DNA of 27,989 nucleotides from a virus (IMGVR_UViG_3300031565_000279:1-27989), one strand, 5' to 3'; shown: positions 421 to 18,426, counted from the stretch's first letter. The notes: a model not told the origin generated them from the sequence alone. Made by a program: numbers and translations.

Positions 421-1747
421 TCCTCTCGCCTATGGCGAATACGCGTTCCGGCACGTTCCAGCTCCCCACCATGCGGAGATGGTCGAGTTCATCCGTGAGC
501 GATTGCGCAAAGGAGAGAACGGCGTCATCCTCGAACCCCGAGGTCACGCGAAGACCACCTGGGGAAACACGATCTTCCTTTCCTGGCTGATCGCGAACAA
601 CCTCAACATCCGTGTTGCTCTCATCTCCAAGACCGAGAAGCAGGCGAACTCCTTCTCGCGGGCCATCCGGTTCAACTTCGAGGCGAACGAGTACCACAGG
701 GAGATCTTCGGAGACCTCGTCGGTCCTCACAAATGGACAGACGATGAGTGGATCCAGCGAGATTCTGCGCTGTCCCGGACGAACAACGTCACGATGTATT
801 CACGCGGAGCACTCTCCGCGATCGTGTCCAAGCGGTTCGACATCATCCTGTGCGACGACATCGTTGATAACGAGAACTCGTCAACCCCCGAACAGCGGGA
901 AAAGATGGACGAGTGGTTCTGGAAGACCCTCAAGCCCTGCCTGGCACCTGGAGGGTCGATCATCATTCTCGGAACCAGGTGGTTCGACGGGGATCTGTAC
1001 CAGAAGCTGATCGAAGAGAAGCGGTGGCCGAGTCTGGTTAGAGGGGCGATCACCTACGAACCCGATGACGTGGACAAGAAGTTCCCTACCGCCCTCTGGC
1101 CGCAGGTCTGGAACATGGATCTTCTTCTTCGGGAGAAGGAGGACATGGGCAGCGCGATGTTTGCGTGCGCCTACCTCAACGATATCTCCGGCCTTATGGA
1201 GGGAAACGTCTTCCGCAAGGACTGGTTCAAGCGGTTTGATCCAGAAGTTGTCCTACGCAAGCAATTGCGCTGGAAGATGGGCGTTGACCTGGCAAGTTCA
1301 GAAAAACAGAGAGCGGACTACACCGCGAGAGTTGTCATCGCTGAAGACAATGACCGGAATACGTACGTATTCTCTGTTGTTCGTGACAAGATCGAGACCG
1401 GGCATCGTGGCTTTGTCATCGACGGGTTCAATGCCTATCCCAAGATCGACAAGATCATCGTGGAGAACAACCAGTTCCAGTCTTCCCTGGTGGCTGAGCT
1501 TCTCAATTCCACCGATCTACCGGTTGTCGGAAAGCGATCCGACGTGGACAAGGTCACCAGGGCACGTGCGGTTGCCGCACGGTACGAGTCAGGAAAAGTC
1601 TTCCACCATCCGTCCCTGGAGGGATCGGACTTCGAGATCGAGCTTCTCCAGTTCCCGCGTGGCCATGACGACATGATCGACGCTCTCGGGAACGCGATGG
1701 AGACCGGATCCGGTGGCTTCATCTTCGGAGGCGCAAAACGTCGATGA
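275..1747 (+). CDS. terL: Terminase large subunit (packaging ATPase-nuclease)
   Basis: A 490-residue protein of usual TerL length with both expected domains. The N-terminal ATPase has a Walker A variant EPRGHAKTT (residues 87-95), a Walker B IILCDD (190-195) and a coupling motif ILGTRW (231-236). The C-terminal RNase H-like nuclease has candidate metal ligands Asp337 (GVDLA), Glu397 (VENN) and Asp465/466 in HDDMIDA. It would pump DNA into the prohead through the portal and cut the concatemer. The start is uncertain. ATG 275 has no well-spaced ribosome site, whereas TTG 287 lies 6 bases after GGAG (277-280) and TTG 335 would also keep the conserved part. Any of these overlaps the preceding gene by 86-146 bases. 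Family identity is very secure. Confidence 0.95.
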   Translation: MEKSLSLLDESFLLSGSEESLTSLASEDLPPEIWDQIREQALRALASTDPLAYGEYAFRHVPAPHHAEMVEFIRERLRKGENGVILEPRGHAKTTWGNTIFLSWLIANNLNIRVALISKTEKQANSFSRAIRFNFEANEYHREIFGDLVGPHKWTDDEWIQRDSALSRTNNVTMYSRGALSAIVSKRFDIILCDDIVDNENSSTPEQREKMDEWFWKTLKPCLAPGGSIIILGTRWFDGDLYQKLIEEKRWPSLVRGAITYEPDDVDKKFPTALWPQVWNMDLLLREKEDMGSAMFACAYLNDISGLMEGNVFRKDWFKRFDPEVVLRKQLRWKMGVDLASSEKQRADYTARVVIAEDNDRNTYVFSVVRDKIETGHRGFVIDGFNAYPKIDKIIVENNQFQSSLVAELLNSTDLPVVGKRSDVDKVTRARAVAARYESGKVFHHPSLEGSDFEIELLQFPRGHDDMIDALGNAMETGSGGFIFGGAKRR

Positions 1748-1953
1748 CCGACATGGTCGAGATGGAATTCCGCGACGGATTTCGCTGGGTTCCGAAGTAC
1801 ATCTCCTCAAAGATGGCCGACATTGAAGACACAGCCATTCTCACCTACGTGGACGCGCTCAAGGTTGCTGATCGTATGGAGCTGGAAAGCTACGTGAAGC
1901 GAGCCCAGGAGCGACTCATCGCAGGACATTTCCGGGTGAATCGTTATGGGTAA
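1744..1953 (+). CDS. Hypothetical 69-residue protein between terminase and portal
   Basis: A short ORF whose ATG overlaps the terminase stop (ATGA) and whose stop overlaps the portal start by 8 bases, so it is probably translated by coupling in the packaging operon. A GGAGG lies 12 bases upstream, inside the terminase gene; ATG 1753 is an alternative start. The product is charged and apparently soluble, with an N-terminal stretch containing FRDGFRWVPKY and a C-terminal amphipathic helix (about residues 38-60). No family is recognised. The tight fit between two essential genes argues that it is real; function is unknown. Confidence 0.7.
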   Translation: MTDMVEMEFRDGFRWVPKYISSKMADIEDTAILTYVDALKVADRMELESYVKRAQERLIAGHFRVNRYG

Positions 1954-3241
1954 AGCTCTCGCACGTGTTTCCGTACAGAAAGCTGCACGGACCAGCCCCA
2001 AGGTCTGGAAGAACTCTAGCTCTGCTGTCACCAACGCCTGGAACGGGCGTATTGGCAAGAGCAACGTGGCACAGTTCAGGTTCTGGGCGGAGCACTCAGA
2101 GTGGATCCGTGGCGCGATCAATATCCGACGCAGCCAGGTCGCATCTGCGGAGTGGGACATCGTCCCATACGACCCGAAGAAGCCGTACAGCAAGAGGCTC
2201 CAGCAGGAAATCCGGGAGACCTTTACCGATCCCAACCCCGCGAACGACTCGTATCGAACCTTGATCGAGCCGATCATCGAGGACATCCTTGTCCTTGACG
2301 CCGGGTGCGTGGAGAAGGAACGAACCCTTGATGGGTCGATCGCCAACCTATGGCCGGTCGATGGCGGGACGATCAGGGTTTCCGAAATCTGGGACGGTAA
2401 CCCAGACGAGTCCCGGTACTTCTGGTATCCGACACACAAGATGGAAGCTGCGTTCAAGAACGCTGACTTCATCTACATGATGGCCAACCGCCGAAGCCAT
2501 TCGGTGGTTGGTCTTTCTGCGTTGGAGACCCTCAAGCTCACCATCGAGGCTGAGCTGTACGCACACGATTACAACCGTCGCCAGGTCGCAGGCGCTGCTC
2601 CCGATGGAGTCATGGACCTGGGCAAGGGCGCAAGCCAGACTGACATCGATCGCTTCAGAGAATTCTTCGAGTCGGAGATGACCTATGGCGGAACGGTTGG
2701 ATTCATCGGCGGAACAGAGCAAGCAAAGTGGATTCCTCTCCGAGGAAGCAACCGGGATATGCAGTTCCTGGAGTGGCAGATCTACCTCGTTCGGAAGATC
2801 GCTGTCGTATTCGGTCTTTCACCGCAGGACCTCGGGGTCACATTCGATGTCAACCGCTCCACATCGGAAATCCAGCTTCAGATCTCCGAAGACCGGGGGC
2901 TCCGGCCGCTGATGAGCCTCGTCCAGGATTACTTCACCAAGGAAGTGGTCTGGGACGCAAGCTATGGCGGGGCCGCGAACAACCTGGCTTTCCGTTACAA
3001 GGCGTTGAACCTCAAGGAATCGACTGCCCGCGCTGAGATGAACAAGCTCTCCCTGGCAGGTGTGCCCTGGAAGATGTTCAACGAAGCCCGCGTTGACGAG
3101 GGCCGTGAGCCTGTTCCTTCCATGGAAGGCAAGATCATCATGGCGACTCCGCAGGGTGCCGTGGATATCAGCGATGTGCCGACCGTGCGGGAGATGCTGG
3201 AGATGCAGGCGGCATCTCGACAGGCGAAACCCGGTGGGTGA
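1946..3241 (+). CDS. Portal protein
   Basis: A 431-residue protein of the phage portal superfamily (SPP1/HK97-like fold). Portal proteins form the dodecameric ring at the capsid vertex through which DNA is packaged and ejected. Supporting features are the position after the large terminase, the FWAEHSEWIRGAINIRRSQV segment near residues 46-65, the DPKKPYS region, and the late IAVVFGLSPQDLGVT segment (about residues 287-301), which matches the conserved portal stretch before the long stem/clip helices. The length fits the family. The start overlaps the 69-residue ORF by 8 bases, and the 3' end overlaps the next glycosyltransferase start by 8 bases, so the accessory cassette is joined directly to it. 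Confidence 0.92.
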   Translation: MGKALARVSVQKAARTSPKVWKNSSSAVTNAWNGRIGKSNVAQFRFWAEHSEWIRGAINIRRSQVASAEWDIVPYDPKKPYSKRLQQEIRETFTDPNPANDSYRTLIEPIIEDILVLDAGCVEKERTLDGSIANLWPVDGGTIRVSEIWDGNPDESRYFWYPTHKMEAAFKNADFIYMMANRRSHSVVGLSALETLKLTIEAELYAHDYNRRQVAGAAPDGVMDLGKGASQTDIDRFREFFESEMTYGGTVGFIGGTEQAKWIPLRGSNRDMQFLEWQIYLVRKIAVVFGLSPQDLGVTFDVNRSTSEIQLQISEDRGLRPLMSLVQDYFTKEVVWDASYGGAANNLAFRYKALNLKESTARAEMNKLSLAGVPWKMFNEARVDEGREPVPSMEGKIIMATPQGAVDISDVPTVREMLEMQAASRQAKPGG

Positions 3242-3905
3242 CGGAAGTCTCACGGTCATCTGCCCGACCAGAGGTAGGCCGATAGCAGTACGCGAGACAT
3301 GGAAATCATTCGTTGCCACCCGAGAGAGGGAGGATACCCAACTGCTTTTCGCGATCAGCGATGACGAGGACCCGGCGGATTACGCCGTTCCCCTGGTGAT
3401 CGTTCCGAAGCAAGCATGGATGAACGAGGTTCTTCAGCTAGCTGTTGATCGGATCCTGGAGAAGGAAGACTCTCCGTCCATCCTGGGCTTCATCGGTGAC
3501 GACAATCGCTTTCGTACTCCGGGATGGGATGTTGCCGTGGGTAGTGCGCTTGGTCGAGGCGGATTCGCTCATTGCAATGACCTCTACCGAAGTGATATCC
3601 CGACCCACGTCTTTGTTTCATCCAGCATCGTGAAGGCGCTTGGGTACTTCGGACTTCGGGGAGCGCGTCACCTGTATCTCGATAACGTTTGGAAGATCCT
3701 CGGAGATGGAGCGGAATGCATCTCCTATCTCTCTGACGTGGTCATCGAGCACATGCACCCCATCATTGGCAAGGGGGAGATGGACGACAGTTACCGGGCC
3801 AGCAATGCTCCCGAGATGTATGTCTATGATCGAGGCGTATTCGAGCAGTGGTATCGGTTTGACAAGGTGCGAGACATTGGAATCGTAAGGTCCACGCTTG
3901 CCTGA
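3234..3905 (+). CDS. Glycosyltransferase, GT2-like (GT-A fold)
   Basis: A 223-residue product beginning at GTG 3234, which overlaps the portal stop by 8 bases; the open frame continues upstream only because it is open through the portal gene. The N-terminus SLTVICPTRGRP is the first beta strand and turn of a nucleotide-sugar binding GT-A domain. GFIGDDNRF (residues 85-93) provides the DXD-like metal and nucleotide-sugar ligand. YLDNVW (148-153) and IEHMHP (171-176) fit the acceptor/catalytic half seen in phage GT2-like proteins. It would transfer a sugar from an NDP-sugar to an unknown acceptor in the infected cell. It is first in a cassette with a nucleotidyltransferase, two methyltransferases and two more transferases. 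Shorter than typical GT2 enzymes; specificity cannot be read. Confidence 0.78.
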   Translation: MGDGSLTVICPTRGRPIAVRETWKSFVATREREDTQLLFAISDDEDPADYAVPLVIVPKQAWMNEVLQLAVDRILEKEDSPSILGFIGDDNRFRTPGWDVAVGSALGRGGFAHCNDLYRSDIPTHVFVSSSIVKALGYFGLRGARHLYLDNVWKILGDGAECISYLSDVVIEHMHPIIGKGEMDDSYRASNAPEMYVYDRGVFEQWYRFDKVRDIGIVRSTLA

Positions 3906-4584
3906 GATTGTTGGCCTACTTCCCATGGGCGGCAATGGTGTCCGTCTGGGAATGCCGTTTCCTAAGCCCCTGGTTCCCACGATCACCAATGACGGGATCG
4001 TCCCGGTTTATCGACATACCTTGCGACACGTTCGGACTGTTGCGTCTATCGTCTATGCCCTTGTCCGTCCGCACACCTGTGAATGCCTGATTGACTCCGT
4101 CGAGGAGGACGGAGTCAAGATCCTTGTCACAGCAGAGGAAAACCTTGCCGCAGCCTTTGGCGATGCTGGATACATGATCGCAAAGAAGCATGGCGAGGAA
4201 ACCCTTGTGGTCTGTGCCCTTCCGGATTCGGTTTGGCGATTGGATCCGAATAGGACGTTGCAGAATGTGATCGATGCCGTTCGCGGGGATGGTGCCCTGG
4301 CCATCTTCGAGTCGGATGCCAGCCAGCTCGATCGGGTCGTCATGTCGATGGAAGGGAACAGGGTCCTGAAAGTCGAGACCAAGGCTTCCGGTGCCGAGGG
4401 GAAGGTCCATGGATGGGGTGCCTTCGTGATCCGGGCCAGAGCTTTGGCGACCTTGACCGCTGCTGAGAAGGACGGGCCTCAGCTCGGTCGATTGGATATG
4501 GGTTGGGCGTATCTCGGCCAGTCCATTGACCTGGGGACACAGGATCGATACATCAACCACCACGACCTACGGAGATGGACATGA
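3898..4584 (+). CDS. NDP-sugar nucleotidyltransferase (sugar-1-phosphate activating enzyme)
   Basis: A 228-residue protein starting at TTG 3898, overlapping the previous stop by 8 bases. The N-terminus LLPMGGNGVRLGMPFPKPLV carries the family signature G-G-x-G-x-R...P-K-P-L: residues 11-16 bind the NTP phosphates and Lys23 is the usual catalytic lysine. CALPDSVW (106-113) places Asp110 as the metal ligand after a beta strand. KVHGWGAFVI in the last third resembles the sugar-binding strand of the family. Such enzymes make NDP-sugars from NTP and a sugar-1-phosphate. The size suits the short MurU/HddC-like branch rather than full-length RmlA/GalU (about 290 residues or more). Which sugar and nucleotide are used cannot be told. 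It implies that the phage supplies its own donor to the neighbouring transferases. Confidence 0.8.
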   Translation: MPEIVGLLPMGGNGVRLGMPFPKPLVPTITNDGIVPVYRHTLRHVRTVASIVYALVRPHTCECLIDSVEEDGVKILVTAEENLAAAFGDAGYMIAKKHGEETLVVCALPDSVWRLDPNRTLQNVIDAVRGDGALAIFESDASQLDRVVMSMEGNRVLKVETKASGAEGKVHGWGAFVIRARALATLTAAEKDGPQLGRLDMGWAYLGQSIDLGTQDRYINHHDLRRWT

Positions 4585-5120
4585 ACTACAACCCTTATGC
4601 GGGCGATCCGGAACCGGAGGGGATCACGTTGCAGGAGTACGCCAAGAGCTGGGTTGACATGGTTCCGCATGTCGAACAACTCAAGGAGCTTGCTTCGCAC
4701 GCGAAGGTTGTCGTCGAGTTCGGGCTGCGGGGTGGTGTCTCGACCTGGTCGATGCTCGACGGACTTCCCGAGAACGGGAAGCTGTTCGGTGTGGACATTG
4801 ATCCCAATGCCCACCTGGCCAGGAGGGTGAGGGAAGATCCACGGTTCACGTTCATCGTCGGAGACTCGGTCAAGGTCGAGTTGCCGCCGAAGGCCGACCT
4901 CGTGATGATCGACAGCAGCCACGAGTACGAGCAGACCGTGCGTGAGCTGGAGACCGCCGCCTCCATGGACCCGAGGGTGATCGCTCTCCATGACTATCTC
5001 TACGAGGAGACGCCGGACGTTAGAAGGGCGGTCGATGAGTTCGTGGACAGTCAGGAGATGTACGCCTTCCGTACCATCCATCCCAGCCGCTGGGGCCTCG
5101 CCGTTCTTCGGAGGACGTGA
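4581..5120 (+). CDS. Class I SAM-dependent methyltransferase (Methyltransf_24-like)
   Basis: A 179-residue product. ATG 4581 is chosen over ATG 4575 because it gives the ATGA overlap with the previous stop and a GGAG (4571-4574) six bases upstream. The Rossmann SAM-binding fold is visible: VVVEFGLRGGVST (motif I, residues 43-55), GVDIDP (motif II, 70-75), VGDSVKVELP, then LVMIDSSHEYE (107-117) and ALHDY (135-139). The D-x-S-H-x-Y and HDY motifs are typical of small methyltransferases associated with sugar or glycopeptide modification, where Asp and His may coordinate metal. In this context it probably O-methylates a sugar, but protein or other substrates are not excluded. Confidence 0.82.
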   Translation: MNYNPYAGDPEPEGITLQEYAKSWVDMVPHVEQLKELASHAKVVVEFGLRGGVSTWSMLDGLPENGKLFGVDIDPNAHLARRVREDPRFTFIVGDSVKVELPPKADLVMIDSSHEYEQTVRELETAASMDPRVIALHDYLYEETPDVRRAVDEFVDSQEMYAFRTIHPSRWGLAVLRRT

Positions 5121-5127
5121 TGCAGCG

Positions 5128-5703
5128 ATGATTCCTGGATCCGACAAGCCCGAGCATTTCCTGAAACTGTACGACCAGTTCTTCATGCCACTTCGAGATC
5201 ATCCGGTCCGGCTCCTTGAACTTGGGATCGCTTCTACCGGGTCCCTGTTCTATTGGGCAGACTACTTCCCGATGGGAGAGATCGTCGGACTTGATTGGGC
5301 AACGTATTCCATCGACCATCCGCGCATCAGGACGATCGCCGGGGACCAGTCCGACCCTGGTGCCCTGGACCGCTGTGGAGACTCGTTCGACATCATCATT
5401 GACGATTGTGCCCATATTGCCCTTGCCGCCAAGGCATCCTTCGATCGCCTGTTTCCCAAGGTCGTTCCAGGTGGTCTGTATGCCATCGAAGACTGGGGGA
5501 CCGGCTATTGGGCCGATTGGGACGATGGAGCTGCGTTCAAGCCCGGGCACTCTTCCGGCATGGTCGGCATGGTCAAGGACCTTCTCGATCGGATGTCAGT
5601 CAATACCATCACCCGTGGGACTTTCTATGGACAGTCCGATGAGCAGTCGGATATCGATTCCCTGGCCATCGTCGAGGGATTGGTGATCGTGGTGAAGTCG
5701 TGA
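5128..5703 (+). CDS. Class I SAM-dependent methyltransferase (MycE/CmcI-like)
   Basis: A 191-residue product starting at ATG 5128, 7 bases after the previous stop, with GGAGGA at 5110-5115; the open frame extends further upstream but only over the previous gene. Motifs: RLLELGI (residues 28-34), EIVGLDW (51-57), FDIIIDDCAH (87-96), then FPKVVPGGLYAIEDWGTGYW. The series IIDD...H / PGG / IEDW is what I know from metal-dependent sugar O-methyltransferases such as MycE and related proteins, with the aspartates and His binding Mg and the sugar hydroxyls. It is unlike its upstream neighbour in sequence, so two different methylations or targets are likely. The sugar substrate is inferred from the cassette. 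Confidence 0.82.
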   Translation: MIPGSDKPEHFLKLYDQFFMPLRDHPVRLLELGIASTGSLFYWADYFPMGEIVGLDWATYSIDHPRIRTIAGDQSDPGALDRCGDSFDIIIDDCAHIALAAKASFDRLFPKVVPGGLYAIEDWGTGYWADWDDGAAFKPGHSSGMVGMVKDLLDRMSVNTITRGTFYGQSDEQSDIDSLAIVEGLVIVVKS

Positions 5704-6323
5704 TTTCGGTCATCATCCCGACGTACAACCGGACCGATCTGCTCATGAATCGGGCTATTCCGTCGCTCCTGTCACAGACATACCAGGACTGGGAATGCCT
5801 GGTGGTTGGGGACGGGACAGAGCTTGCCACCGAAGAGGCGATGGCTGGTCTCTCGGCAAGAGACCCACGGTTCCGATTCTGGAACCTACCGAGGTTCCAG
5901 TACCCAGAAGCCTGGCATCTCCGATGGGGACTGTCTGGATTGGTGGCTCGCAACTTCGGTCTCGATCAGGCGCGCGGGGAGTTCGTTGCCGCCCTCGATG
6001 ACGATGATGCCATGGAGCCCCAGGCGCTTGAAACACTTCTGGGCGAGTTCACACCAGAGGTGGATTTTGTCTATGGTGTGAGTAAAACGTACAAGGACGG
6101 GGTACACACTGGACAGAACTATGGTCGGTACCCAGTCGGTGATGGAGCGTTTTGCAATGGGGCCTATGTCTACCGATCCAGTCTTCCGTATCGATTCGAT
6201 ATCAACTGCTTCGACAGGGAGATGAACGGGGACTGCGATATGTGGATCCGCATGGTTGTTGGCGGAGTCAGGTTCCACTTCACCACGAAGATTGTTCACC
6301 AGTACCACAGGAACTTCCCGTGA
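5700..6323 (+). CDS. Glycosyltransferase family 2
   Basis: A 207-residue GT-A glycosyltransferase starting at GTG 5700 (GTGA overlap with the preceding stop). Canonical GT2 signatures are present in order: ISVIIPTYNR (residues 2-11), CLVVGDGT (33-40), ARNFGLDQARGEFVAALDDD (83-102) with the DXD metal ligands in LDDDDAM, and NGDCDMWIRM (176-185), the position of the catalytic base region, followed by HQYHRN near the C-terminus. It would transfer a sugar residue in the cytoplasm using an NDP-sugar. It is short and has no membrane segment, so it resembles soluble phage transferases rather than cell-envelope polymerising enzymes. The acceptor is unknown. Confidence 0.9.
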   Translation: MISVIIPTYNRTDLLMNRAIPSLLSQTYQDWECLVVGDGTELATEEAMAGLSARDPRFRFWNLPRFQYPEAWHLRWGLSGLVARNFGLDQARGEFVAALDDDDAMEPQALETLLGEFTPEVDFVYGVSKTYKDGVHTGQNYGRYPVGDGAFCNGAYVYRSSLPYRFDINCFDREMNGDCDMWIRMVVGGVRFHFTTKIVHQYHRNFP

Positions 6324-7033
6324 TCCCTGTCCTCATTGTTCCGATCCTCAACCGGCCGGAACTCCTGGATGCATTGCTGGCCTCCATCGACCATCCCATC
6401 GAACGGATCGTGGTGATCGACAACGGCAACGTGGTCGGCAACCTGCCGGGTGTCCACGTCATCCATCTTCCGCACAACCTTGGGGTGTCTGCGGGATGGA
6501 ATCTTGGGATGAAGGTGACGCCCGATGCGCCCTGGTGGTTGATCTCCAACCATGACATCGAGTTCGGGTCGGGGGACCTCGCCCATCTCGCTGAGGTTGT
6601 CGATCCGAATGTCCCAGACATCAACTACATGCTGGGCATGGCGGCGTTTGCGATCACGCAGGAGACCCTGGCAGATGTCGGGTACTTCGATGAGAACTTC
6701 CACCCGGCATATGACGAGGATCTCGACTATGCCAGGCGTGCGCAACTCGTTGGCGTGAAGGAAGTCCAGGCAGGATTCACCGGCAAACACGTTGGGTCAG
6801 CCACCATCTATGCCGATCTCGACTATCGGGCGCAGAACGGCAAGACCCATCCGGCTAACGACAGGTACTACGAGGCAAAGTGGGGCGGTAATAAGCAGGG
6901 TGGAGAAACGTTCAAGACCCCGTTCAACATGAACGTGGACATCGGGTTTTGGCAACTCGACCCGCTTCGCCTCATGCGCCAGGCATGGATCACCAAATCG
7001 CATCGGATGTTCCATGAGGAAATGGTCGAGTAG
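6320..7033 (+). CDS. Glycosyltransferase family 2 (rhamnosyltransferase-like)
   Basis: A 237-residue product starting at GTG 6320, overlapping the previous stop as GTGA; the open frame upstream of it belongs to the preceding gene. GT2 features: IPVLIVPILNRPELL (residues 2-16), VVIDNGN (31-37), HNLGVSAGWNLGM (52-64), SNHDIEF (76-82, metal-binding position) and the acidic YDEDLDYARRAQ (131-142) with the likely catalytic base. The NLG-V-GWN-G pattern and D-EDLDY motif are shared with rhamnosyl- and galactosyl-type GT2 enzymes. No membrane segment. It is the last gene of the coupled cassette and is followed by a gap with three hairpins. Confidence 0.9.
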   Translation: MIPVLIVPILNRPELLDALLASIDHPIERIVVIDNGNVVGNLPGVHVIHLPHNLGVSAGWNLGMKVTPDAPWWLISNHDIEFGSGDLAHLAEVVDPNVPDINYMLGMAAFAITQETLADVGYFDENFHPAYDEDLDYARRAQLVGVKEVQAGFTGKHVGSATIYADLDYRAQNGKTHPANDRYYEAKWGGNKQGGETFKTPFNMNVDIGFWQLDPLRLMRQAWITKSHRMFHEEMVE

Positions 7034-7126: not shown

Positions 7127-7444
7127 ATGGCCGCAATTACGGTTACGCCTACAAGCGGGCGTGCCAAGATGAGTGTTCTTCGGATCGATGTCACTGGTCT
7201 CGATGACACCGATTTCAACACCTACGACGCAGCTCACGTTCCGGCTGAGCACGAGATCCGGTACTACATCGAGGCGACGCTCGATGGGACGCGGTATCTC
7301 AAGAGTCACGAGTTCACCCCGTCCCAGGCTGGAAAGCACACCTGGAACAGCATTGTTGTTCCTGCTACTGGCACGTGGACGTTCGGCATCTGTGATGTTG
7401 CCGATGATTCAACCAAGGCTACGACCGAATTCGTCGCTAGCTGA
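7127..7444 (+). CDS. Putative small beta-rich virion protein (105 aa)
   Basis: A 105-residue protein with a good ribosome site AGGAG (7116-7120) six bases before ATG 7127. The sequence is made of alternating short beta strands with no long helix; RYYIEATLDGTRYLKSHEF and GTWTFGICDVADDS read like edge strands of a single Ig- or FN3-like sandwich. No signal peptide or membrane segment. It stands alone between hairpin-rich gaps, as capsid decoration or head-fibre genes often do. I do not recognise a specific family; the role as a decoration protein is inferred from composition and position. Confidence 0.68.
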   Translation: MAAITVTPTSGRAKMSVLRIDVTGLDDTDFNTYDAAHVPAEHEIRYYIEATLDGTRYLKSHEFTPSQAGKHTWNSIVVPATGTWTFGICDVADDSTKATTEFVAS

Positions 7445-8300: not shown

Positions 8301-10694
8301 ATGGTTGCCCTGACTCCCCTCACCGTCGGCAATGCGAACACCCCGAGCGGATGGACGAGCGCGCCCAACGGTGCGTTGGGCGACAACAGCGACGCCACGT
8401 ACGGGTACTACGCCACCACGGGCGACGCGCAGGTCGATCAGGGCTGGCTGCTCGCGGACACCGACGCCGACCTCGGGACGATGGACACGCTGTCTGTCGT
8501 CCTGCGGTACGGCTGGTCGGCCACGCCGGGCAACGACATCTGGCAACTGGCAGCCGCGCCTGGCACCGCTGGCCTCCAGTGCCGGATCATCAGCGGCGCG
8601 ACGATCCTCGCGGCGGCCGACGCGGGCGGGGCGTTCGCCACCATCGTCGCCGCCCCGGCCAGCGACGCGACCATCCGCAACTCGGCCGCCTACGTGTTCA
8701 GCACCAGCGGCTACCTCAACATGACGGCGAACAAGGCGCTCTGGGACGCCGCGGTCGTCGAGATCCGCATCTCCCGGGACAGGGTCAAGGGCGGCTCGAC
8801 CGAGGAGCAGAGGGTCTACGAGGCCGACTTCACCGGCACGTATACCCTAAGCGCCACGCCCGTTCTCACCCAGCCGACCGCCGCGTCGCTGACGTTGACG
8901 GGTGCCACGCCTTCCGTTGCTGCGGTCGGCACAGCCAGCCGCCAGCCAACTGCTGCCAGCCTGGGTCTGACCGGCGCTACTCCTGCGGTCGTGGTCACGG
9001 ACAACGTTGTTTCGTTCCCGACCGCTGCTGGTCTGGCGCTGACCGGGGCAACGCCTGCTGTCGTCGCTATCGGAACGCAATCCCGCCAGCCAGACGCTGG
9101 GTCGCTGACACTGACCGGTGCGACACCGTCTGTCCTGGCTCCGTGCAGCAGCCTGCCAGATTCCGTAGGCATGACCCTGACCGGTTCTGCACCGTCGGTC
9201 ATCGCTATCGGAACGGCAGCTCCACAGCCATCAGCAGCCTCCATATCGATTACTGGTGCTGTACCAGCGGTCAACATCAGCGCGAGCGTCTGGTCTCAGC
9301 CAACCGCAGCCAGTCTCTCGGTAACCGGCGCAGTTCCTGATGTTGTTGCCAGTGGCGCAGTCCTGTCACAGCCCACGGCAGGTGCGCTGACGCTTACGGG
9401 TGTTGCCCCTGCTGTAGAAGCCATCGGTACAGCATCTCGGCAGCCCACTTCCGCCAGCATGGAGCTGACGGGTACGGCACCAGACGTGGCCGTATCCGAT
9501 AACACTTGGTCGATTCCGGTCGCTGCAAGCCTGGTGTTGTCTGGGCTTGTCCCTGCTGTTCTGACGCCCGTTCTCACCCAGCCGATTGCTGAATCTCTTG
9601 TCCTGTCAGGTCTTGTTCCTGACGTTGCGACTCCGATCTTGTCCCAGCCTTCCGAGGCATCGATCACCCTGGCAGGTGAGATTCCATCGGTTGTCGCTAT
9701 CGGGACGGCCCACCCGCAGCCAGACAATGCTGCGCTGACCCTGACGGGTGCCATACCCAATGTCAGTACGTCAGCAGCTATTGCACCGCAGCCGGTAGCT
9801 GCAAGCCTGATCGTCACCGGTGAAGTACCGGTGGTAGAGGCAGTTGGCACCGCGCTGTCACAGCCGACTGCCGAGGGGTTGGTTCTCACCGGAGATACGC
9901 CTTCGGTTGAAGCGTTCGGACTTCAGAACCGCCAGCCGACGGCAGCTTCTCTCACGATCGAGGGCGAGGTTCCTGCTGTCGTAGCGGTCGGAACAGCCAG
10001 CCGACAGCCAACTGCTGCCAGCCTGACCACAACCGGGTTCGCGCCTGACGTTGTTGCTGTCGGTACGGCGCTCGTTGAACCTAATGCTGCTGCCCTGGTT
10101 CTGACGGGCGCTGTCCCATCGATGGGTGCCGGTCTAAGCGTTGAGCCGACTGCCGCATCCCTGACCTTGACCGGTGCAACTCCGTCGGTCGTCGCCATAG
10201 GGACTGCACATCCTCAGCCGGGATTGCTGCCCATCTCAATGGTCGGGATGGCCCCCGATGTTCTGGTATCGGTCAGAGTCGTTTCTCTACCAACGGAAGC
10301 GTCGATAATTCTGACTCCAGGAACACCTGAAGTCTATGTCTCGGATCCAACGGTCAGCCTCCCGCTGGCAGGTTCGCTATCGCTGACAGCGTTCGCTCCC
10401 GATGTTGTTCTCAGCGACAACATCTGGTCTGTTCCTGGATCTGCTTCCCTATCTTTGGTCGGAGCTACGCCAGATGTAGAAATTCCTGTCTGGGCAATTC
10501 CAGCTCCGATAGGGCTCACCCTTACCGGATACCCGCCAATTGTCTATACGGTTCCGAGGCTTGCTAGCACTGCCGGGGTAATGACACAAAGATCTGGTGT
10601 AACCGGGTCGCTTACGGAACGAAGTGGGATAACAGGGTCGATGACCAAGCGACCTAATGTCGCCGGTAGCATGAGCGACAGGAGTATCAGATGA
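8301..10694 (+). CDS. Long repeat-containing putative virion fibre/adhesin protein (797 aa)
   Basis: Three parts are visible. Residues 1-190 form a Gly/Ala/Asp-rich beta domain with high G+C coding. Residues ~190-754 are 24 tandem copies of a 22-24 residue unit, consensus QPTAASLTLTGATPSVVAIG, with the Pro at position 2-3, the L-x-L-x-G core and the P-x-V being the most constant. The last ~40 residues are four basic 10-residue units around GSMTxR. It has no signal peptide, membrane segment or catalytic motif. The unit length and alternating hydrophobics suggest two beta strands per copy stacking into a long rod (inference). Position between sugar genes and capsid genes suggests a head fibre or surface decoration. 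Its stop overlaps the next start (ATGA). Real gene; family not recognised. Confidence 0.85.
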   Translation: MVALTPLTVGNANTPSGWTSAPNGALGDNSDATYGYYATTGDAQVDQGWLLADTDADLGTMDTLSVVLRYGWSATPGNDIWQLAAAPGTAGLQCRIISGATILAAADAGGAFATIVAAPASDATIRNSAAYVFSTSGYLNMTANKALWDAAVVEIRISRDRVKGGSTEEQRVYEADFTGTYTLSATPVLTQPTAASLTLTGATPSVAAVGTASRQPTAASLGLTGATPAVVVTDNVVSFPTAAGLALTGATPAVVAIGTQSRQPDAGSLTLTGATPSVLAPCSSLPDSVGMTLTGSAPSVIAIGTAAPQPSAASISITGAVPAVNISASVWSQPTAASLSVTGAVPDVVASGAVLSQPTAGALTLTGVAPAVEAIGTASRQPTSASMELTGTAPDVAVSDNTWSIPVAASLVLSGLVPAVLTPVLTQPIAESLVLSGLVPDVATPILSQPSEASITLAGEIPSVVAIGTAHPQPDNAALTLTGAIPNVSTSAAIAPQPVAASLIVTGEVPVVEAVGTALSQPTAEGLVLTGDTPSVEAFGLQNRQPTAASLTIEGEVPAVVAVGTASRQPTAASLTTTGFAPDVVAVGTALVEPNAAALVLTGAVPSMGAGLSVEPTAASLTLTGATPSVVAIGTAHPQPGLLPISMVGMAPDVLVSVRVVSLPTEASIILTPGTPEVYVSDPTVSLPLAGSLSLTAFAPDVVLSDNIWSVPGSASLSLVGATPDVEIPVWAIPAPIGLTLTGYPPIVYTVPRLASTAGVMTQRSGVTGSLTERSGITGSMTKRPNVAGSMSDRSIR
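8874..10562 (+). repeat. 24 tandem ~72-bp protein-coding repeats
   Basis: The repeat block of the 797-residue gene. Most units are 24 codons, some 22-23. Copy 1 (8874-8918) and copy 19 (10146-10190) encode the same 15 residues, PTAASLTLTGATPSV, yet differ by synonymous bases in 10 of 15 codons. The repeats are therefore old at the DNA level and held together by protein-level selection, not recent slippage. Confidence 0.85.
10575..10691 (+). repeat. Four 30-bp coding repeats (GSMTxR units)
   Basis: The C-terminus of the repeat protein is four ~10-residue units: GVMTQRSGVT, GSLTERSGIT, GSMTKRPNVA, GSMSDRSIR. Each ends a strand-like hydrophobic pair with a turn and carries one Arg at a fixed place. 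Distinct in length and composition from the 24-residue units before it. Confidence 0.7.
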
Positions 10695-11220: not shown

Positions 11221-12498
11221 ATGGGCCGGAGGGTCTTGTTTATTTCCGACGCTGGATGCCACACGGGCTTCGGCCGCGTGACGCATTCCATCGGGGACAG
11301 GTTGGTCGAGAAGTTCGGCCACGAGATCAACGTTCTTGCGATCAACCATCGAGGAGATCCATGGGACACGCCCATGAATCTGTGGCCTGCATCTCTTCGT
11401 GCGCAAGGCGACATCTATGGCTTCGCACGCGTCATCGAGCTGCTCGAAAAGACGATGCCCGAAGTGGTCGTTATGGTCAACGACCAGGAGGTCATCCTCC
11501 GGTACCTGTTCCAGAACAAGTTCGACCGGGAGAAGATTCTCCTCAGCTTTGCTCCGATCCTGACCTATGCGCCCGTTGACGGGATCAACAGTCCTCCGGT
11601 CTGGGAGATCCTTGGCGAATACGTCACCCGCGTGGCGATGACCAAGTTCGGTCAGGAAGCTCTCCCCGGCAGCGAGATGATCTACCACGGTGTTGACACC
11701 TCGGTGTACTACCCGGTATCGGACAAGGCCCCGATCACAACGAGCGGCGGGGAGATCATCACCAGCAAGCGGGATGCCAAGCGCGCCCTCGGCTATGACC
11801 CTGATGGGTTTCTGGTCGTGCGCGTGGACCGGAACAGTTCCAGGAAGAACTTTCCGGATACCTGGAAGGCTCTCGTTCCTGTCATCAGGAACCATAGGGA
11901 CATCCAGGTCCATTTCCATTGCCAGGCCAGGGGTGACTACTTCACCTTCCCCAACATCCTTGCTCGTGAGCCTGATGTGGCGAACCACTTCTTCTTCCCT
12001 GATGAACGAACTCACAACACGTTCATGGGGTGGCCCGACAACGACCTGGCCGTTCTCTACAACGCAGCGGACGTGTTCGTGTCCACGACGTGGTCCGAGG
12101 GATTCGGTCTGACAATTGCCGAGGCCATGGCCTGCGGAGTTCCTGTCATCGCTCAGGATTGTTCAGCGATAACAGAAGTCGTTGGTCCAGGCGGCGTCCT
12201 GGTCCAGCCTTTGACAACCATCGTGGCCCCGACTGGTCAGGATCAATGGATCCCTGACGTTCCCGCGTTCAGCGCGGCCATCGAGAAGATCTACCAATCA
12301 AAAGGTGCGCGCCGCGACCTTGGCCGAAAGGCCCGTGAACACGTCGAGGCGAATTTCTCCTGGGATACAGCCGCAAGCCAGTTCAACGACTTGATCGAGC
12401 GGTTGGCTTCTACACCCAGGAAAGGAAAGGAACCAGATGCCGGAGCAGAAGCAGCCCCAGTTCAAGATCGTGACGGGGGCTCTGAAGGCCGTCGATAG
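11221..12498 (+). CDS. Glycosyltransferase family 4 (GT-B fold)
   Basis: A 425-residue retaining GT-B transferase, with GGGGAG (11211-11216) four bases before the ATG. The N-terminal Rossmann half opens with RRVLFISDAGCHTGFGRVTHS, the typical Gly-rich acceptor-side loop. The C-terminal half has FLVVRVDRNSSRKN (residues 197-210) with the Arg/Lys that contact the donor diphosphate, and EGFGLTIAEAMACGVPVI (293-310), the E-x7-E donor-sugar motif. It would transfer an activated hexose in the cytoplasm. It lies between the fibre-like genes and the capsid genes and its last 62 bases overlap the protease gene; the final ~25 residues (Gly/Asp/Arg-rich) lie in that overlap and are probably non-essential. 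It is the fourth transferase of the region, from a different fold class. Confidence 0.92.
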   Translation: MGRRVLFISDAGCHTGFGRVTHSIGDRLVEKFGHEINVLAINHRGDPWDTPMNLWPASLRAQGDIYGFARVIELLEKTMPEVVVMVNDQEVILRYLFQNKFDREKILLSFAPILTYAPVDGINSPPVWEILGEYVTRVAMTKFGQEALPGSEMIYHGVDTSVYYPVSDKAPITTSGGEIITSKRDAKRALGYDPDGFLVVRVDRNSSRKNFPDTWKALVPVIRNHRDIQVHFHCQARGDYFTFPNILAREPDVANHFFFPDERTHNTFMGWPDNDLAVLYNAADVFVSTTWSEGFGLTIAEAMACGVPVIAQDCSAITEVVGPGGVLVQPLTTIVAPTGQDQWIPDVPAFSAAIEKIYQSKGARRDLGRKAREHVEANFSWDTAASQFNDLIERLASTPRKGKEPDAGAEAAPVQDRDGGSEGRR

Positions 12499-13549
12499 CC
12501 CTGACGGCAGACGAGTCCTTCACTGCACCGCCTCGTCCTCGATCACGGATCGTCATGGTGACGAGATCACCGAAGAGTGCATCCGGGACATGAGCAAGCA
12601 GGCCGTTGAGAAGAGCATGACGATCTTCCTCAACCACCACTACATCGTCCCGGAAGATGTCATCGCGAAGACATATGCAGCTCAGGTCCTGAATCGCGTC
12701 AAGACCAGCGAGGATATCCAGATCTGGGATCTGGATATCGATATCGAGATGGTCAATTCCAACCCCCGCGCCGACAAGACCTGGGACCTCCTCAAGGGGG
12801 ACATGGTCAAGCTCGGCGTTTCGATCGGCGCGATGATCGAAGACTGGGAATACATCGACAAGGATGCTGGTTTCTGGGGTGGCCTTCGGATCAAGAAGGT
12901 CGATCTCCTGGAAGCTTCCATCGTCGGCATCCCTGCTAACCAGCGAAGCTGGGTCCAGAACGCTGTGAAGGCGATCAAGTCCTTCACTACCTCGGCAGAG
13001 ACCGAGGAGAACGAGGAGACCTCTGATATGCCGCCTGAGATCATGACCCTTGGCGAGAACGGCCCTGAGACCGTGATCGCACCTATTGCTCCTACTGCGG
13101 ACACCGAGTCCGCTGCTGAGGAAACGCCCGAGATCACACCGGAATCCGTTGAGGCTGCTGCCGATCCGGAGACCCCGGAGGTTGTTCCCGAGTCCGAAGA
13201 GACGCTCCAGGAGCTTCCCGCCATCGAGGCGGCGCTTGAGGGGGAGTCCGAGACAGAAGACGACAGCGAAGATGCTGGCGAGGTCAGTGATTCTGACATC
13301 GTCCTTGCGCTCACCTTGACGATCGATGATCTAAAGGACCAGCTCAAGAACGCGATGGCCGAGATCGAGACCCTCCGCGTGCAGAACTCTGAGCTGACGG
13401 ATTACGTCAAGGACGCCGACGCGATCCTTACGACTGTGGCGAAGACGCCTGTCGGTAGAAAGACTTCCATCGCACGCACGGTTGACACCTTCCACAACAA
13501 GGTTGTCGAGATGTACGGCGAGGAAGCCGCCAAGTACCTGGAGATCTAA
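12437..13549 (+). CDS. Prohead protease with fused scaffold domain (HK97 U35-like)
   Basis: A 370-residue protein with two parts. Residues ~8-180 match the HK97-type prohead protease: TASSSITDRHGDEI near the start, NHH (66-68) with the candidate catalytic His, KLGVSIGA (125-132) with the candidate Ser129, and LLEASIVGIPAN (157-168). Residues ~185-280 are a very acidic Glu/Pro/Thr linker, and ~285-335 a coiled coil (LTIDDLKDQLKNAMAEIETL), as expected of a scaffolding domain. It would template prohead assembly, then cut scaffold and capsid N-termini. An AAGGAAAGGAA ribosome site precedes ATG 12437, inside the GT4 gene. Protease-scaffold fusions of this kind are known in siphoviruses. Confidence 0.9.
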   Translation: MPEQKQPQFKIVTGALKAVDSPDGRRVLHCTASSSITDRHGDEITEECIRDMSKQAVEKSMTIFLNHHYIVPEDVIAKTYAAQVLNRVKTSEDIQIWDLDIDIEMVNSNPRADKTWDLLKGDMVKLGVSIGAMIEDWEYIDKDAGFWGGLRIKKVDLLEASIVGIPANQRSWVQNAVKAIKSFTTSAETEENEETSDMPPEIMTLGENGPETVIAPIAPTADTESAAEETPEITPESVEAAADPETPEVVPESEETLQELPAIEAALEGESETEDDSEDAGEVSDSDIVLALTLTIDDLKDQLKNAMAEIETLRVQNSELTDYVKDADAILTTVAKTPVGRKTSIARTVDTFHNKVVEMYGEEAAKYLEI

Positions 13550-17803: not shown

Positions 17804-18121
17804 ATGCCCCTGTTGAATTCGATCTCTGGTCTTGATGGCAAGATCGAGGTCGTTGGTCTCGGGCTCGTTATCGCAATGATCCAGAGATGGACACTAGAGA
17901 GGCGCGCAAATTCTGGGTCTGATGAATTGACCTGGAATCTGCGCGCTTCTCTTGCGTATCAGAACGATGCCTGGATAGGAAAGACAACCGGTAAACGAAG
18001 AATGACGCTCACGCTCGACGCCAAGACAACATTCCTGGCAGAGCCGATTGAGGGCGCGACATGGAAGATCGAAGGCAACAGCCTTCACGTCGAAGGAGTA
18101 AGGGTGTGGCAGAAGAAGTGA
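17804..18121 (+). CDS. Hypothetical tail-region protein (105 aa)
   Basis: A 105-residue protein between the tail tube gene and the chaperone genes, with GGAGGG (17795-17800) just before ATG 17804. The first ~30 residues are hydrophobic (KIEVVGLGLVIAMIQRW) but too short and interrupted for a confident membrane segment; the rest is beta-rich (LRASLAYQNDAW, KRRMTLTLDAKTTF, KIEGNSLHVEGVRVW). Its 3' end overlaps the next gene by 16 bases. No family is recognised. By location it may be a minor tail tube or tail-assembly protein; that is inference. Confidence 0.68.
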   Translation: MPLLNSISGLDGKIEVVGLGLVIAMIQRWTLERRANSGSDELTWNLRASLAYQNDAWIGKTTGKRRMTLTLDAKTTFLAEPIEGATWKIEGNSLHVEGVRVWQKK

Positions 18122-18426
18122 AGGCGGCGAAGCCTGCCGACGATGGTCTCGATACGAGAACCATCACGCATAAGGGGAAGTCGTACACGTTCCGTGAGAT
18201 CACGGTGGACGAGAACGACGAGGCGCTGGAGGCAGCGAAGAACCCGGACGGGAACACGATCAACACTCGTGTCATGAACCGGATGATCATCACGCTGAGC
18301 GCCACCGATCCCACCATCTCCCTCGACGACCTGGGCAAGTTCTCTCACCGGCTGTACCAGAAGATCGTGGATACGGTCAACGAGCTGAACGATCCCGACC
18401 GCGTTGAAGAAGACCCAAACGACTGA
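18106..18426 (+). CDS. Tail assembly chaperone, short form (gpG-like)
   Basis: A 106-residue protein from GTG 18106, with AAGGAG (18093-18098) seven bases upstream; a longer open frame from 18061 lies inside the preceding gene and lacks a ribosome site. The sequence (HKGKSYTFREITVDENDEAL, then RMIITLSATDPTISLDDLG, acidic end VEEDPND) fits the G-type chaperones, which coat the tape measure before tube polymerisation. Its last codons contain the slippery heptamer CCCAAAC, giving the longer form described separately. Position directly before the tape measure agrees with this. Confidence 0.85.
   Translation: MAEEVKAAKPADDGLDTRTITHKGKSYTFREITVDENDEALEAAKNPDGNTINTRVMNRMIITLSATDPTISLDDLGKFSHRLYQKIVDTVNELNDPDRVEEDPND

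Follow-up and report, generated by a model that had tools for sequence, protein, structure and literature searches.

The window analyzed here is the whole of a 27,989-base virus record from IMG/VR (IMGVR_UViG_3300031565_000279), derived from a soil phage, with genes in the order terminase, portal, head, neck and tail. Between the portal gene (1946–3241; phrog_2662, 3.5e-39) and the remaining head genes lie six open reading frames (ORFs) at 3234–7033, referred to as P1 to P6 and encoded, like the portal gene and the genes at 7127–7444 and 11221–12498 described below, on the + strand. Their coordinates and junctions proved exact as given in the original prediction, a reading of the DNA alone. 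P1 overlaps the portal stop by 8 bases (3234–3241), and further overlaps join P1 to P2 (8 bases, 3898–3905), P2 to P3 (4 bases, 4581–4584), P4 to P5 (4 bases, 5700–5703) and P5 to P6 (4 bases, 6320–6323), with a single 7-base gap between P3 and P4 (5121–5127). Because tight overlaps are frequent in this operon (TerL/1744, 4 bases; 1744/portal, 8 bases), gene coupling is in itself unremarkable; the run of carbohydrate genes is the remarkable part. Pairwise ratios of nonsynonymous to synonymous substitution (dN/dS) were 0.13–0.31 for P1, P2, P3, P4 and P6, indicating purifying selection, and dS was saturated for P5. These low ratios, together with a gene order seen again in dozens of contigs, argue that the six genes are not chance ORFs.

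P1 (3234–3905), the anchor gene of the island, belongs to the glycosyltransferase family phrog_14945 (5.5e-33). It had no Pfam match, and as a P1 profile matched none of the PDB sequences, the modelled fold was used instead. The model (predicted local distance difference test, pLDDT, 96.5) adopts a GT-A fold, in support of the predicted GT-A transferase, with Z scores of 15–17 to polypeptide N-acetylgalactosamine (GalNAc) transferases (GalNAc-T2), the WrtF fucosyltransferase, polysaccharide synthases and teichoic acid transferases. Since the scores of these neighbours lie close together, the acceptor is not readable from the fold. P5 (5700–6323; PF00535, 6.4e-22) and P6 (6320–7033; PF00535, 6.2e-7) both passed the gathering score of the GT2 model (78.7 and 29.9 versus 23.3 bits). 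The motifs claimed for this pair were largely confirmed, P5 carrying a true DDDD and P6 an EDLDY, but the first motif of P6 is NHD (NHDIEF), not DXD. P6 resembles galactosyl- and rhamnosyltransferases, with a match to phrog_29879, galactosyl transferase (1.6e-32), and one to TIGR01556 (4.8e-5) that falls under the cut-off.

The six genes had been taken as a complete set. A seventh member was overlooked, a GT-B (GT4-type) glycosyltransferase at 11221–12498 (phrog_2170, 8.8e-31; Glyco_trans_1_4, PF13692, 4.9e-17), which precedes and overlaps the head protease gene. Its relatives adjoin P6 relatives and methyltransferases in the isolated phages S-CBS4 and phiPsal1, and in contigs L100 and L101 relatives of P5, P4, P6 and the GT-B enzyme occur together immediately upstream of the protease and major capsid protein (MCP) genes. 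On account of these associations the GT-B enzyme was placed in the same pathway, which it most likely shares with the six-gene cassette. Phage-encoded glycosyltransferases are accordingly represented by P1, P5, P6 and the GT-B enzyme. The adjoining head protease (12437–13549) has an acidic, Glu/Pro-rich middle and is possibly a protease-scaffold fusion. Contig L100 also carries, upstream of its head genes, a 1695-residue ORF (1524–6608) with tape-measure PHROG matches, an unusual place for such a gene; the matches may be repeat-driven.

As judged by motif, profile and modelled fold, P2 (3898–4584) is a nucleotidyltransferase; its substrate is probably the phosphate of a sugar or a polyol. The predicted motif, MGGNGVRLGMPFPKPL, was found at residues 10–25 with one variable position across five relatives, and the signature G-G-x-G-x-R...P-K, here GGNGVRLGMPFPKPL, is invariant at all but one position in six aligned sequences. 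A P2 profile reached human ISPD (4cvh, E 1.5e-5). The model gave Z scores of 12.8 to IspD, 12.0 to GlmU and 10.8 to TarI, and a Foldseek match to RmlA (~1e-7), supporting the nucleotidyltransferase fold; its pLDDT is 59, so that motif and profile bear much of the weight. No match exceeded the cut-offs of Pfam or NCBIfam and none was significant in PHROGs; P2 matches no curated model of a named sugar-nucleotidyltransferase family such as RmlA or GalU. P2 would therefore represent a nucleotidyltransferase family that is missed by the standard annotation libraries searched. A tblastn search of 50,697 phage records returned no match. The earlier claim that the phage makes its own activated sugar is plausible, with the qualification that P2 resembles polyol/isoprenoid nucleotidyltransferases about as closely as it does those for sugars. 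P2 was also tried as a guide to the host in bacterial genomes; two loci matched only the short motif region of a long actinobacterial protein, and no host was learned. Actinobacterial proteins in L027 and L028 are ~690 residues long and hold an NTP-transferase-like domain with a P2-type RLGMPFPKPLTPL motif, preceded by a domain that, by eye, resembles CDP-glycerol glycerophosphotransferase.

The two class I methyltransferases are dissimilar, as predicted, and fall in distinct families. P3 (4581–5120) is Methyltransf_24/CmcI-like (PF13578, 5.7e-12; PF04989, 3.2e-6) and exceeded both gathering cut-offs (Methyltransf_24, 46.9 versus 26.3 bits; RMNT_CmcI, 27.4 versus 23.2 bits); it had no tblastn match in the same 50,697 phage records. 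A P1–P3 fusion, suggested by phrog_2675, occurs in none of the contigs retrieved. P4 (5128–5703) is related to the catalytic domain of the metal-dependent macrolide sugar O-methyltransferases MycE (PDB 3ssm, 2.1e-27) and TylE (8ia9, 4.1e-19). Residues D92, D93, H96, E121 and D122 are invariant in six aligned sequences, and D93, H96 and D122 align with Asp275, His278 and Asp304 of the MycE family (numbered, like Tyr208, from PMC9275233; the count assumes a 20-residue tag in the 3ssm chain). At 191 residues, P4 aligns only to residues 202–358 of the 419-residue 3ssm chain, lacking the N-terminal part and the short stretch that bears Tyr208. Since that stretch and the full-length architecture are absent, P4 is regarded as a relative of MycE and TylE and not counted as a member. 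ThnM1, a MycE relative, does not methylate NDP-sugars and acts on the attached sugar (PMC9275233), which by extrapolation suggests that transfer precedes methylation.

These families bear on whether the glycosyltransferases might instead modify phage DNA bases, as in phages with glucosylated DNA. Action of phage glycosyltransferases on DNA has been reported (discussed in PMC12619734), and a PHROG profile that bears the name DNA methyltransferase aligns in part with P1 and in part with P3. P3 and P4, however, match small-molecule or sugar O-methyltransferases, and a gene of the thymidylate synthase/hydroxymethylase type was found in 0 of 17 related contigs, all fragments, when the control was detected in 9 of 14 genomes. 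Modification of DNA bases is considered very unlikely.

Searching IMG/VR for P1 gave 126 confirmed relatives, 80 of which were kept. In ~50 related contigs, almost all of which share one portal type, P1 follows the portal at a median of 601 bases. In 48 of 50 relatives the interval holds a ~163-residue Ser/Thr-rich protein (25% Ser+Thr; e.g. L024, 6549–7040) that matched nothing in Pfam and had no significant PHROG hit. The window, unusually among island carriers, yielded no relative of this protein, an absence that rules it out as an obligatory acceptor. Downstream of P1 lie mixtures of P2, P3, P5, P6, other methyltransferases and glycosyltransferases, cytidylyltransferase-like genes and NAD-dependent epimerases (PF01370, 2.4e-35; phrog_540, nucleotide-sugar epimerase; no PDB sequence match at 1e-20). 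A conserved small protein, found after the cassette in the window (7127–7444; 22% Ser+Thr, no Pfam match), was seen downstream of P1 in 21 loci. Among the 17 contigs whose slot is visible as far as the terminal glycosyltransferase, P2 is present in 4 and the epimerase in 13, with both in 0 and neither in 0 (Fisher p 0.0004, a value made too small by relatedness among the contigs, since the P2-bearing rows fall into a single cluster of the P1 tree). In a second group of 31 contigs, the epimerase comes next after P1 in 27 of 29 cases. With three alternative partners seen, a P1-type transferase beside a sugar-nucleotide enzyme is a recurrent theme.

Trees of a quick kind were built for P1 and for the portal, the window portal forming a long branch. 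The P2-bearing P1 sequences cluster together (10 rows, with a starred value of 100), whereas on the portal tree the same rows are scattered, with 3 forced changes on starred branches, and the window portal groups with that of an epimerase-bearing contig. This discordance indicates that the P1–P2 block has moved between phage backbones. Genes resembling homing endonucleases (HNH or LAGLIDADG-looking, by eye) stand directly before P1 in L009 (3639–4001), L024, L045, L064 and L067, in the latter four between the ~163-residue gene and P1; such genes could possibly drive cassette exchange. The variable content of the slot, and homing-type endonuclease genes beside P1 in several relatives, would also be expected if heterogeneous accessory genes had simply gathered at a recombination-prone site and did not form one pathway. 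Most identifiable slot genes are nonetheless carbohydrate enzymes or methyltransferases, P1 and P2 move together across backbones, P2 and the epimerase never occur together and tight overlaps are found at 71 of 114 junctions, and we consider such a chance gathering very unlikely. The cassette looks like a swappable coat-making module, not a wholly new kind of system. Tentatively, and with slightly less than even confidence, the island may be viewed as a virus counterpart of the bacterial serotype locus, in which a fixed, P1-anchored slot in the structural operon exchanges P2 or the epimerase (either/or), methyltransferases and glycosyltransferases as blocks and so gives related phages chemically different coats.

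As for function, the cassette is, with somewhat better than even confidence, a modular late-operon pathway that provides the phage's own virions with a methylated glycan. The analyses support the classes to which the enzymes are assigned, purifying selection, repeated clustering of the genes, block exchange and placement among structural genes; the donor, acceptor, order of steps and biological advantage are inferred. P2 would join a nucleotide to a phosphorylated sugar or polyol to give the activated donor, and P1 would begin the glycan by transferring one residue to its acceptor, for which the likeliest candidate is a structural protein encoded in this operon. Chain extension would fall to P5, P6 and the GT-B enzyme, and P3 and P4 would O-methylate sugar hydroxyls after transfer. 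The benefit may lie in protecting the particle or in altering surface recognition.

Location favours the part of the original prediction that placed the glycan on virion proteins, with the acceptor itself a matter of inference. The module occupies several slots, mostly among structural genes: after the portal in the window and in 49 contigs with the portal visible, before the protease and MCP in L100 and L101, between tail genes and tape measure in L016, between MCP and neck in phiPsal1, between portal and protease in S-CBS4, and upstream of the terminase in TJE1. A virion-protein acceptor is proposed because the enzymes appear soluble, the module lies among structural genes in unrelated phages and virion glycosylation by phage enzymes is established in mycobacteriophages (PMC12363180, PMC12619734 and PMC11256854, citing Freeman 2023). 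No membrane segments were found in the seven enzymes (maximum KD19 0.77–1.41), as expected for cytoplasmic acceptors, and a membrane-anchored transferase of the kind used in Gtr-type O-antigen conversion (GtrA/GtrB/Gtr) is absent from these seven by the same measure. A 797-residue protein at 8301–10694, made up mostly of degenerate tandem repeats (QPTAASLTLTGATPSV...) with 22% Ser+Thr and no PHROG match, may belong to the particle surface or a fibre and is a candidate for carrying the glycan; in L103, a repeat protein related to it is encoded close to P4.

The same enzymes could instead act on a polymer of the host surface, such as wall teichoic acid, perhaps so that competing phages are kept out. 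The wall teichoic acid transferases TarP, TarS and RmlT are among the structural neighbours of P1, and TarI and other CDP-ribitol synthases among those of the P2 fold. That role sits poorly with seven enzymes that lack a membrane segment, with the absence of a recognised flippase or GtrA-like partner among the annotated window genes, and with a module found among late structural genes in several unrelated phages, which is late for competitor exclusion; we judge it unlikely.

Several observations do weigh against decoration of the particle. The teichoic acid and polysaccharide transferases and the protein O-GalNAc transferases near P1 have similar Z scores. In the one case examined from the second contig group, P1 adjoins tail-fibre, endolysin and recombination genes, not head genes; Streptomyces and Arthrobacter phages likewise have their P1 relatives away from the head genes. 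Mycobacteriophage glycans have been reported at C-termini, and the last 60 residues of the MCP and tail-tube proteins are not Ser/Thr-rich (12% and 18%). The window and the related contigs are, moreover, all fragments. An actinophage label was not adopted, since comparisons of the terminase, portal and capsid gave no consistent host, only distant and conflicting signals (Staphylococcus, Bacillus, Microbacterium and Thermus).

Elsewhere in the window, two ORFs with a 61-base overlap (17804–18426) precede a 2500-residue, tape-measure-sized ORF and are candidate frameshifted tail assembly chaperones.

If the acceptor is the virion, phages beyond the mycobacteriophages would carry an exchangeable pathway for coat chemistry, and gene exchange could make the particle surfaces of close relatives different. 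The island would then also provide a defined set of loci at which to study the role of virion glycans in soil, for which vertebrate antibodies offer an unlikely explanation. It adds a nucleotidyltransferase family overlooked by standard annotation libraries. No published description of the island was found in the open-licence papers searched.

Among known systems, phages Che8, Corndog and Myrna likewise encode glycosyltransferases, reported to glycosylate capsid and tail-tube proteins (PMC12363180 and PMC12619734, citing Freeman 2023). Their glycan was shown experimentally, whereas the window cassette is known from its genes; the window set is larger, with a nucleotidyltransferase, two methyltransferases and four transferases. 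In Rhodococcus phages, a glycosyltransferase and a methyltransferase led the authors of a 2026 paper to propose that virions are glycosylated (PMC13313380). In Tetrasphaera phage TJE1, orf9–orf14 (NC_019930) comprise an annotated nucleotidyltransferase, nucleotide-sugar epimerase, methyltransferase and a glycosyltransferase related to the GT-B enzyme. That cassette differs in having an epimerase and a guanylate kinase and in its slot, upstream of both terminase and portal, and profile comparison of P2 with its nucleotidyltransferase gave no significant match. Synechococcus phage S-CBS4 (gp14–16) and Pontimonas phage phiPsal1 (gp10–12) carry a GT-B enzyme, a P6-related GT2 enzyme and an S-adenosylmethionine-dependent methyltransferase inside the head genes. 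These sets consist of three genes only, their methyltransferase matches no window protein (phmmer), and the region shown has no nucleotidyltransferase or P1 relative. In Streptomyces phages EGole, Phredrick and Coruscant and Arthrobacter phage Atuin, a P1-type transferase is directly followed by a nucleotidyltransferase gene, but this partner is ~150 residues long, is annotated, depending on the record, as a nucleotidyl-, cytidylyl- or heptose adenylyltransferase and is not P2, and the pair lies outside the structural block. The cassette thus goes beyond a single-transferase arrangement, as originally claimed, without being unprecedented: glycosyltransferase-methyltransferase sets in phage head genes (S-CBS4, phiPsal1) and the fuller TJE1 cassette are already in public records. 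Added here are the predicted P2 family, its alternation with the epimerase, evidence that blocks are exchanged, and recognition of the GT-B gene as part of the set.

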